Origin: Prevotella sp.
Lineage (GTDB): Bacteria; Bacteroidota; Bacteroidia; Bacteroidales; Dysgonomonadaceae
NCBI GenBank assembly: GCA_031263965.1
Contig: JAISES010000187.1
Coordinates: 1-22,230, forward strand
DNA: 22,230 nucleotides
Direction of reading: 5' to 3'
Both the position numbers and the translations under genes were made by a program. Below are positions 11,422-13,427 of the stretch, piece by piece; within the stretch, counting starts at the first letter, position 1, and the number at the start of each line of letters is the position of its first letter. The notes under the pieces were generated by a model. It did no database searches and was not told the DNA's origin. It worked only from the letters and a program-made list of their open reading frames with translations.

Positions 11422-11697
11422 ATGAGAATAAAAGACACTTTAAAATTAAAGGCAGGGGATATCTTGTACAGGGTTGATCCCCGTAAGTTATCGATTAAGG
11501 CATTCAGAATAAGCAGCCCTGATGAAGTGTATAATTTCACGACTACTACTCATGAAAATTTTTCTATCGAATGCGAAAAGAAGCGGTTCCATTTACCACA
11601 GGGCATACTTTCTTTCCCTTTTGAGTTTAAAGGACTATTATATTTTCTTTGCGAAGATGATGCCAACGGCTATATTAAAACTCAAATAGGTTTGTAA
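11422..11697 (+). CDS. Small conserved-looking hypothetical protein
   Basis: This 91-residue protein is not recognised. It opens MRIKDTLKLKAGDILYRVDP, a short amphipathic strand region resembling small beta domains, and later has SFPFEFKGLLYFLCEDDANGY. It has no signal peptide, membrane segment or catalytic motif. It is supported as a real gene by its position, a strong terminator 14 nt after its stop and a lack of competing frames. It is transcribed alone, divergent from mce. A TATTATTG box (one mismatch to TAnnTTTG) lies about 30 nt upstream. Confidence 0.68.
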   Translation: MRIKDTLKLKAGDILYRVDPRKLSIKAFRISSPDEVYNFTTTTHENFSIECEKKRFHLPQGILSFPFEFKGLLYFLCEDDANGYIKTQIGL

Positions 11698-11710
11698 ATA
11701 CATTAATATA

Positions 11711-11750
11711 ATAAAAGCGCTTCAGAAATCGAAGCGCTTTTATTTTTTTT
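11711..11750 (+). terminator. Strong rho-independent terminator
   Basis: A 13-bp perfect stem (11711-11723 with 11731-11743, core AAAAGCGCTTC/GAAGCGCTTTT, 7-nt loop) leads into an uninterrupted T run. It ends the 91-residue gene. Confidence 0.93.
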
Positions 11751-12052
11751 ATTATTACCTGATGTTACGTAGCGCAAGAACAAACCCAATGAAAAATATT
11801 AACATCACATACTCCTATTCTTTTTTCTGTGCAAGCAATCTCTGACTGCGCGCAGAAAAAGCACCACAAGAATAAAAAAACCGTTGTGACACATTCCTAT
11901 ACCTCTCTGGTAAGAAAAAAAGAACTACAAATATTTCTTGATGCATTTATCCTGAATATAATCCGTTTAGATATTCTGAATGAATTTTTTATTTATACCT
12001 TTGTTACATATATTAAGAACAATAAAGAATGTACGGATAGAAACATAACATA
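11751..12052. other. Gene-free stretch
   Basis: I see no convincing gene here. A 75-codon frame at 11829-12056 has Lys/His-rich, low-complexity composition and no recognisable domain. One TACCTTTG box lies at 11996-12003 without a matching -33 element. A CTGCGCGCAG palindrome occurs near 11846. The structured RNA candidate begins immediately to the right. Confidence 0.5.
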
Positions 12053-12083
12053 TTGATTAAATCATAATGGGCTTTTAGCTTTT
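12053..12083 (+). promoter_or_regulatory. Promoter of the candidate structured RNA
   Basis: TTG at 12053-12055, a 20-nt spacer and TAGCTTTT at 12076-12083 fit the -33/-7 pattern with one mismatch. A start 6-7 nt downstream falls at about 12090, exactly the first base of the outer stem of the RNA. Confidence 0.5.
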
Positions 12084-12089
12084 ATTCTC

Positions 12090-12250
12090 ACTAATCAGAA
12101 ACCTAGGAAATTTCAGAGATTGTCCGAGAATAATGTGCGAGGGTTCACGTCTTCGGGCGTGAACTATTTGCGCTTATTTAGGACAAATGGTCATTCCTAG
12201 GTACCATGATTAGTTAAATAAGTATTCAGCAAATAGTTTCACGCCTTTTT
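12090..12250 (+). ncRNA. Candidate small structured RNA, 6S-like rod with alternative terminator fold
   Basis: Two competing structures can be drawn. Fold 1 is a rod. An outer stem pairs 12090-12097 with 12207-12214 (8 bp) and 12101-12109 with 12194-12202 (9 bp). An inner stem pairs 12120-12125 with 12181-12186 (6 bp). A nearly symmetric open bubble follows (12126-12142 against 12165-12180). The end hairpin is 12143-12151 with 12156-12164, capped by a UUCG tetraloop. Fold 2 pairs 12156-12171 with 12229-12245 (16 bp, one bulge) and 12173-12180 with 12215-12222 (8 bp), followed by TTTTTGTTTT: an intrinsic terminator. A promoter box fits a start at 12090. The rod with central bubble is the 6S RNA plan, but the end hairpin is short for 6S. 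It could instead be a leader attenuator of the acyltransferase or a mobile palindrome. Confidence 0.55.
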
Positions 12251-12255
12251 GTTTT
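12156..12255 (+). terminator. Terminator hairpin at the 3' end of the structured RNA
   Basis: The long stem described for fold 2 (GGCGTGAACTATTTGC against GCAAATAGTTTCACGCC, then CTTATTTA against TAAATAAG) is followed by TTTTTGTTTTG. It ends about 18 nt before the first possible acyltransferase ATG (12273). Confidence 0.7.
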
Positions 12256-12305
12256 GCTTGTTTTAAGAGTTTATGAAGGTTAGCGCTCGCAAACCCTTAA
12301 AATTC

Positions 12306-13427
12306 ATGGACAACAAATTTTCCCCCAGAGACATTCAGTCACAGACGATTGATTTTCTACGTTTTCCGCTTATTATCGGAGTAGTATTTATTCATAACAC
12401 CGCAGCCGAGATTGTAATAAATGGGCAGGTATCCGGAACCGATAAGTATATGCCGGTTTTTGAATATTGCTCCACCCTCTTTTCTGATGTTTTAGGTACT
12501 ATTGCTGTTCCTCTTTTCTTTTTTATGTCGGGTTTTCTGTTCTTTTTTAACCTTCAAAAATTCAATGTACATAGTTACAGAAACAAATTGCAATCAAGGG
12601 CAAAGAGCTTGCTTGTGCCATATTTGTTTTGGAACTTAGTTGTGTTCACTTTGTATTACGCTATGCAAAATATACCTTTGCTACAAGGTTTCACGAATAA
12701 AGAACTTGATTTACATCACTTTTTAAGCTATTTCTGGAACAATTCAGGAGAAATGAAGGAAGGATATTTACTTGAAATAAACACAAGTTCAAGAATGCCG
12801 ATTGCTTATCAATTCTGGTTTATTCGCGATTTGATAGTTACTGTTATTCTAACGCCTGTTATTTATTTTTTATGTAAAACAGGGAAAATTTATGGGGTTG
12901 TTATACTTGCTCTTTTATGGTTATCAGATTGGTTGTTCAGTTTTACAGGATTAAGTAGTACGTGTCTCTTCTTTTTTACGGCAGGGGCATATTTAGGAAT
13001 AAGTAAAAGAAATATAATAGAAGATTTTGGTAAAATAAGAAATCTATCTTTTGCGTTGTATCCAATAGTTGCAATCGCCGATTTGTTGACTAAAGAATAT
13101 ATTTTTAACGTATATATTCATAAGATAGGGATAATAACAGGCATTATCTTTTGTTTCAATCTTGTAGCATTTTTGTTGGCCAAAGAGAAAATCAGGTCAG
13201 TCCCATTCCTTTCGGCGGCTTCATTTTTTATTTTTGCTGTCCATGCTTTGTTATTAACTATTTTGCGTAAAATTTCATTTATGATTTTTCGTCCGGAATC
13301 CGATTTTACAATGACAAGTTTATATTTTATTAATGTTATCCTGACGGTTTTTATAACTTTAGGCATGTATTATATCTTGAGACGTTTTTGGCCGCGATTT
13401 GTGGCAATTATCACCGGCGGACGGTAA
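12306..13427 (+). CDS. Integral-membrane acyltransferase 3 family protein
   Basis: The protein resembles the Acyl_transf_3 family, which transfers acetyl or other acyl groups to surface carbohydrates. From ATG 12306 it has 373 residues, normal for the family, with about ten hydrophobic segments. The opening IDFLRFPLIIGVVFIHN holds the conserved Arg and His (family pattern LRxxxxxxVvxxH); further on come PLFFFMSGFLFFF and a YQFWFIRDLIVTVILTPVIYFLC segment. The frame extends to an earlier ATG at 12273, but those 11 residues are basic and unlike the family, so 12306 is preferred without certainty. The acceptor is unknown. No glycan synthesis genes surround it. It lies directly after the structured RNA and may depend on read-through of that terminator. 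Confidence 0.87.
   Translation: MDNKFSPRDIQSQTIDFLRFPLIIGVVFIHNTAAEIVINGQVSGTDKYMPVFEYCSTLFSDVLGTIAVPLFFFMSGFLFFFNLQKFNVHSYRNKLQSRAKSLLVPYLFWNLVVFTLYYAMQNIPLLQGFTNKELDLHHFLSYFWNNSGEMKEGYLLEINTSSRMPIAYQFWFIRDLIVTVILTPVIYFLCKTGKIYGVVILALLWLSDWLFSFTGLSSTCLFFFTAGAYLGISKRNIIEDFGKIRNLSFALYPIVAIADLLTKEYIFNVYIHKIGIITGIIFCFNLVAFLLAKEKIRSVPFLSAASFFIFAVHALLLTILRKISFMIFRPESDFTMTSLYFINVILTVFITLGMYYILRRFWPRFVAIITGGR

Follow-up and report, generated by a model that had tools for sequence, protein, structure and literature searches.

Transcription attenuators, whether of the trp-leader type or in the form of riboswitch expression platforms, rely on the competition between an antiterminator and a terminator. 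The element described here lies in a stretch of 22,230 nt from Prevotella sp. (GCA_031263965.1, contig JAISES010000187.1, positions 1-22,230, forward strand), which was analyzed at its full length and is referred to as the window. It resembles the trp-leader type in having four strands with the pairings 1:2, 2:3 and 3:4, followed by a U-run and a downstream gene. It differs in that its two hairpin loops are complementary and its alternative structure is one long rod, in that no conserved leader peptide was seen by eye, and in that a single type of leader precedes very different genes.

Within the Bacteroidota, Bacteroidales-1 and 6S (RF01693, RF01685, RF00013) share with the element a long rod-like form; unlike these, the element matches none of their models, its supposed bubble is closed, and it occurs as a multi-copy leader. 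The Flavo-1 motif (RF01705) is likewise dispersed in this phylum and is placed, in the accessible part of PMC9723704, at several 5' transcribed regions, in sense or antisense indistinctly, whereas no Flavo-1 match is found in the window or in 38 other loci that carry the element. Palindromic, terminator-like candidates from Bacteroidetes also figure among the human-microbiome RNAs of PMC8040213, and the element may overlap with one of that paper's 3161 candidates. The RNA is not described in the accessible portions of the literature, which include parts of PMC9723704, PMC2864571, PMC8040213, PMC7366714 and PMC10994844; it may be listed elsewhere without a name.

The locus and its competing folds

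We consider it roughly 70% probable that the element attenuates transcription in cis from the 5' leader of an acyltransferase mRNA, and that it is one copy of a large, unnamed RNA family. This reading, which is drawn from sequence, had been the last alternative of an earlier first-pass annotation of the same DNA, and it is the one favored by the evidence. The complementary sets all fall inside 12067-12252 (Table 1), and they can be combined in two ways. In the two-hairpin fold, arms 1 and 2 pair with each other, as do arms 3 and 4, the latter pair forming an intrinsic terminator with its U-run. In the rod, arm 2 instead pairs with arm 3, and P1, P2 and P3 zip up, burying the terminator strand, which would let RNA polymerase pass.

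Table 1. Features of the element and its surroundings, in positions of the window
Feature	Position	Strand	Remarks
Likely -7 promoter box TACCTTTG	11996-12003	+	Bacteroidota consensus TAnnTTTG; inferred start near 12009-12011
Segment ACATATTGATT, just 5' of the element	12048-12058	+	looks conserved, by eye in aligned rows
Arm 1 with 5' extension	12069-12089	+	core TTATTCTC at 12082-12089; pairs with 12126-12133
P1 (outer stem)	12090-12097 / 12207-12214	+	rod only; 8 bp; swap test 101/108
Hairpin A	12098-12114	+	GAA(A) stem, loop carrying the P2 5' strand, UUUC
P2 (inner stem)	12101-12109 / 12194-12202	+	9 bp; pairs in the rod, or could kiss loop-to-loop in the two-hairpin fold
P3	12120-12125 / 12181-12186	+	rod only; 6 bp, inside the 'bubble' of the first-pass annotation; swap test 107/108
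Arm 2	12126-12133	+	partner is arm 1 (two-hairpin fold) or, from 12128, arm 3 (rod)
2:3 helix of the rod	12128-12140 / 12168-12179	+	
Top hairpin with UUCG loop	12142-12151 / 12156-12165 (whole element 12142-12165)	+	10 bp; pairs in the alignment of relatives
Arm 3	12155-12181	+	terminator 5' strand or top of the rod; 3:4 swap test 102/108
Hairpin B	12189-12205	+	GGU, loop carrying the P2 3' strand (P2' = 12194-12202), ACC
Arm 4 (12214-12246) and U-run	12214-12251	+	3' half of the intrinsic terminator
Inverted repeat TTTTAAGAGTTT...AAACCCTTAAAA	12261-12302	+	between terminator and start codon
Acyltransferase gene	12306-13427	+	Acyl_transf_3, Pfam PF01757, 103.6 bits; membrane protein; ATG 12306 or 12273

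The rod and the terminator exclude each other, as the first-pass annotation had recognized, because the shared strand 12156-12180 is needed by both. The outer, inner and UUCG stems that it had reported were found again, at 8, 9 and 10 bp. Its terminator stem, given there as 24 bp, is present next to the U-run: 27 pairs in three helices (9 + 8 + 10, with small bulges between) join 12155-12181 to 12214-12246 and adjoin TTTTT at 12246-12250. The 17/16-nt central bubble, which had been drawn as open, is paired, and the helix that closes it, P3, is supported in 107 of 108 relatives. Both P3 and arm 1, by which the second fold is completed, had been overlooked.

The minimum free energy is -57.1 kcal/mol both for 12087-12220 (z = -8.8) and for 12087-12250 (z = -6.6); in each case 0 of 200 shuffles were as stable. 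For a rod without the outer arms, the two folds of the window are nearly equal in energy (-56.2 vs -55.1 kcal/mol), and with these arms included the rod is ahead by about 7 to 9 kcal/mol.

The inverted repeat that follows the terminator may be a second, separate control element. Several close relatives have, as judged by eye, resembling repeats ahead of the start codon, and none was seen in the wider RNA family. On the other side of the element, an upstream open reading frame (ORF; 11422-11697), which has no Pfam match, is followed at 11713-11749 by a strong terminator-like hairpin, AAAGCGCTTC...GAAGCGCTTTTATTTTTTT.

Conservation of both folds

Covariation of the stems among relatives, which the first-pass annotation had proposed as a check, is present in two kinds of analysis. 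The first is an alignment-independent swap test, in which each strand's energy of pairing to its native partner is compared with the energies for 60 partners taken from other members. The members were anchored on the two P2-bearing hairpins; of 180 in total, 175 were anchored (5 could not be) and 67 redundant ones were dropped, leaving 108. The own partner beats the swapped mean in 101 members for P1, 107 for P3, 97 for 1:2 and 102 for 3:4, and the weakest supported helix is 2:3, with 88 of 108. Wrong-pairing controls reach 41/108 and 45/108; in the control that pairs P1 with P3' the swapped mean is distorted by no-duplex values, and its median rank of 0.56 is the better figure. The value for P2 (106/108) is biased, since P2 and the two hairpin stems served as anchors. 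Arms 1 and 4, which would close the rod, show no covariation in this test (51/108, median rank 0.50), and the window's own 1:2 pairing has a rank of just 0.25.

The second analysis uses 11 close relatives in a plain MAFFT alignment. The rod shows 42 two-sided changes vs 19.4 in shuffles (0/500 reach 42) and a covariation score of 0.245 vs 0.152 (0/500), while for the two-hairpin fold the corresponding values are 14 vs 8.2 (6/500 reach 14) and 0.139 vs 0.120 (2/500). Pair types of the two-hairpin fold are not in excess in this alignment (34 vs 36.3 shuffled; 457/500 reach it), and sliding the partners lowers the covariation score of both folds. P1 and P3 form standard pairs in 52.9% and 48.0% of the cells, low values that are put down to misaligned loops. 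The pairs of P2 across the relatives include GC, CG, AU and UA.

The ratio of G-U to A-C counts is 29:21 in P1, 21:7 in P3, 70:11 in 1:2, 55:5 in 3:4 and 49:13 in 2:3, and this excess of G-U in every helix argues for selection on the sense RNA. A conserved and mutually exclusive antiterminator is present, with P1, P3 and 2:3 on one side and 1:2 and 3:4 on the other. On this comparative evidence both mutually exclusive folds of the element are kept by evolution, and the first-pass proposal of a new RNA with two such folds stands.

The apical loops of hairpins A and B are complementary by way of P2, so that the two hairpins could kiss. A kissing score of at least 26 was reached by 58 of 63 real sequences and 38 of 189 shuffles, and one of at least 30 by 39 of 63 and 4 of 189, respectively. 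Hairpin B is supported by the dinucleotide GG, which occurs within 5 nt before TACCAG in all 102 distinct cores of the sequence pattern described below, though the pattern did not require GG. Its stem takes the forms GGG/CCT, GGT/GCC, GGC/GCC and GGT/ACC among the members, for which the anchoring demanded such stems.

Two further candidate helices were set aside: a separate 5' hairpin, P0, around 12069-12089, which is convincing by eye and unsupported (mean z -0.40), and an additional pairing of arm 4 with the stretch behind the U-run, which is weak and little different from its control (65/105 vs 55/105).

Distribution of the family and its relation to 6S RNA

A DNA search of 61 genomes (E <= 0.01) gave matches in 11, the source genome included. 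Three genomes besides the source hold five long and clear matches between them, two of the three carrying two copies each; the remaining matches are short, although two of them (in G007 and G019) overlap matches found later by covariance model. The genes that follow the copies differ, comprising by eye an EcoRI-like and a cytosine-type methyltransferase as well as lipoproteins, and the EcoRI methylase is confirmed by Pfam. A first covariance model, R1, was built from six sequences (the copy in the window and the five clear matches). Within the genus it locates the element in 17 of 25 genomes and within the family in 35 of 101, the source genome being counted in both, with up to 13 matches per genome.

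A wider scan used the sequence pattern GAAANCTGGTAANTTTN{50,80}TACCAGNGCCTC on contigs from one genome per species and returned at least 116 stretches. Among the 80 titles listed, 70 are of Bacteroidota (Bacteroides, Flavobacterium, Chryseobacterium, Sphingobacterium, Dyadobacter and others), and the rest comprise four Fibrobacter/Fibrobacterales, three Lentisphaerae, one Ignavibacteria, one Verrucomicrobia MAG and one 'Clostridia' MAG. Given 100 of the pattern loci, R1 recovers the element in 98 and misses L154 and L174. A second model, R2, was built from 107 matches (alignment A6, which contains at least four reverse-strand matches) and under strict filters detects the element in at least 41 of 296 genomes sampled from the phylum, the source genome included; this is a lower bound, since at most nine candidates per genome were scored. 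In 16 genomes chosen as carriers, R2 gives between 1 and 17 matches each, the highest number being that of Bacteroides xylanisolvens XB1A. In the source genome R2 gives five matches at E <= 2.5e-5, including a partial one, plus two that are weaker; the last of these two is the reverse strand of another match. These model-detected copies differ in sequence from that in the window. The many related copies before very different genes, in Bacteroidota and in neighboring phyla, point to an unrecognized family of genetic switches.

The first-pass annotation had preferred a 6S-type RNA, which would mimic an open promoter and bind RNA polymerase. The long rod and the theme of refolding do recall 6S, and beyond these the comparison fails. 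The window contains no Rfam family at gathering score, 6S and Bacteroidales-1 included, and the central bubble is paired; the element is multi-copy, and most copies occupy a leader position before genes. The source genome has its own Bacteroidales-1 RNA on another contig (RF01693 at G000:C308:472-645, 146.7 bits), as do others: a match above the cut-off occurs in 13 of 21 searched genomes, the source among them. The available part of PMC7366714 reports that Bacteroides has a 6S RNA and makes product RNAs, and with the Bacteroidales-1 RNA elsewhere in the genome the 6S slot is thus filled. A 6S identity for the element is therefore hardly credible. In 39 stretches, namely the window and the 38 carrier loci, the element is without a match in Rfam 15. 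Six sub-threshold Rfam matches at 11900-12400 (E <= 10: mir-2796, STnc480, BSnc120, mir-231, FMR1-AS1_1 and RMST_1) lie far below their gathering scores and are regarded as chance; neither 6S nor Bacteroidales-1 is among them.

Promoter, terminator and orientation

The transcription start had been placed by the first-pass annotation at 12090, the first base of the outer stem. This is doubtful, since conserved sequence begins near 12069 or earlier and the likely -7 box lies further upstream still. The box accords with the Bacteroidota consensus TAnnTTTG, as quoted in the part of PMC7366714 that was available, and no -33 TTTG was seen by eye upstream of it. Across the family, TAnnTTTG occurs upstream in 69 of 107 members, where 6.6 would be expected from mononucleotide shuffles. 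At the other end, 80 of 106 members have at least five T within the 8 nt after arm 4, as against 69 of 636 control windows, and this U-run, combined with the swap-test support for 3:4, indicates an intrinsic terminator.

Neighboring ORFs were called mechanically. For the 108 non-redundant members, the first downstream ORF is on the same strand in 93, on the opposite strand in 9 and missing in 6, and the first upstream ORF is on the same strand in 64, on the opposite strand in 38 and missing in 6. Fuller sets give similar downstream counts: 97 same strand, 10 opposite and 10 none among 117 loci that were not de-duplicated, and 55, 4 and 4 in a set of 63. In B. xylanisolvens XB1A, 15 of the 17 copies are followed by a same-strand ORF when both strands are considered, or 16 of 17 when same-strand downstream ORFs alone are sought. 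The position between promoter and start codon that an attenuator leader should occupy is thus the usual one, with 15 of 108 members as exceptions.

The same observations bear on the alternative of a stand-alone small RNA of about 240 nt, ending at the terminator and acting in trans, for which the position before genes would reflect shared promoters or chance. The promoter box and terminator do frame a complete unit, the rod is very stable, and the 15 exceptional members without a same-strand next ORF would suit such an RNA. The orientation of the other 93, and of 15 of the 17 copies in XB1A, speaks for a leader instead, and it is not evident why an RNA acting in trans would conserve a fold by which its own terminator is disrupted. 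We regard this alternative as unlikely.

The proposed switch

If the element is an attenuator, the order in which its strands emerge may determine the outcome. In equilibrium folding of the growing RNA, with an assumed start at 12009, the probability of 1:2 is 0.95-0.98 at 12140-12165 and 0.82 at 12172, falls to 0.22 at 12179 and is 0.00 at 12186, where 2:3 stands at 0.96; P1 closes at 12214, just before arm 4. According to this calculation, 1:2 would form first and flip to 2:3 once 12179-12186 is out, so that the modeled decision point would lie at 12172-12186. The rod would be complete at 12214, before arm 4 exists, and read-through is therefore the calculated default.

For the full-length RNA the equilibrium terminator probability is 0.00, and across 105 members the median advantage of the rod is 6.5 kcal/mol (quartiles 2.0 and 11.2) with the kissing energy uncredited, the two-hairpin fold being favored in 15 of them. 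Termination would consequently need a factor or kinetics absent from the model. A ligand or protein that holds 1:2 closed at 12172-12186, or that keeps hairpins A and B kissing at this point, would allow 3:4 to form, whereupon transcription would stop and the gene would be off. Both the factor and the direction of the switch are what we infer; the opposite direction, with termination as the default in the cell and a factor favoring the rod, is possible.

An extended form of this proposal may be put forward tentatively, as something we hold to be rather less probable than its negation. The family would constitute an undescribed class of RNA sensors that alternate between two kissing hairpins and a long rod, present in Bacteroidota, Fibrobacterota and parts of the PVC group. 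One signal would be sensed where the hairpins kiss, a junction flanked by near-invariant GG...CC and AA...UUU, and would switch transcription of accessory genes, namely those for restriction-modification, surface and secreted proteins, sigma factors and response regulators, and genes on conjugative elements. The regulon would be a dispersed one that moves with its genes.

Downstream genes and their implications

The alignment and scan covered 87 of the 95 listed references to downstream ORFs; eight (L098, L087, L129, L153, L154, L175, L184 and L187) were omitted by eye, without a written rule. The 87 proteins contain 61 Pfam families, and among the 25 shown the commonest are RibD_C (8), DHFR_1 (4), AhpC-TSA/thioredoxin-like (3) and sigma-70 region 4 (3). 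PADLOC models for type III and for type II methyltransferases each match two members, possibly one and the same pair. No function common to the 87 scanned proteins was found, and since they are so diverse, the commonest family accounting for 8 of 87, no signal or ligand is named.

With up to 17 matches in a chosen genome and an occurrence in several phyla, and without a match in Rfam 15 across the 39 stretches scanned, this would be a sizeable, unassigned leader RNA family of gut and environmental Bacteroidota. If its members are attenuators, a single signal may govern many accessory genes whose present annotation treats them one by one. The presence of copies in strains of Bacteroides, Flavobacterium and Chryseobacterium makes the attenuator reading directly testable. 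The kissing-hairpin and rod design would also be an unusually clear natural case of two exclusive folds that are both visible in covariation.

Genomic setting of the copies

L107 consists of two identical copies, inverted, near both ends of a 7.1-kb contig (G021:C33), and the copies L099 and L100 are also at contig ends, which could mean that near-identical copies disrupted the assembly or that they mediate inversion. At L071, L241, L092 and L072, two or three element matches occur within a few kb, partly as arrays of leader-gene-leader-gene. One copy of XB1A (L142) precedes a RibD-like gene and lies within 1.5 kb of the RNA genes rteR and BTnc005. rteR is linked with CTnDOT, and the copy is thus probably on a CTnDOT-like conjugative element.

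These settings, together with the dispersed, multi-copy occurrence before unrelated genes, raise the question of whether the element acts as DNA, in the manner of an attC-like or MITE-like site of mobility or recombination, folded in the single-stranded state; the inverted copies of G021:C33, the tandem repeats of leader and gene at L071 and L241 and the probable conjugative element at L142 would all fit. The prevalence of G-U over A-C in all helices, though P1 has just 29:21, points to RNA, as does the placement of promoter and U-run, and the strong orientation bias toward the next gene is likewise at odds with a DNA site. A mobile palindrome would also leave many identical copies, by which the first-pass annotation itself would have been contradicted. 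The source genome has no near-identical copy, a DNA search giving the window itself and matches of 14-20 bases, though another genome has two identical ones; compensatory changes are moreover found across the members. A DNA-level element is thus quite improbable, and the attenuator remains the preferred reading.

Spread by viruses was considered and dropped, since a single viral contig (L246) was the lone match in one scan of a viral collection; its flanking genes are different. At L113 (2423-2677; G008:C295), the ORF behind the copy begins like an EcoRI-type methyltransferase (MANTNLTDAKNAKNDEFYT) and continues, by eye, like sigma-70 region 4, an arrangement suggestive of a junction, from recombination or from assembly, immediately after the leader. 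Near another copy, L097, a fluoride riboswitch is found at 2054-2122.
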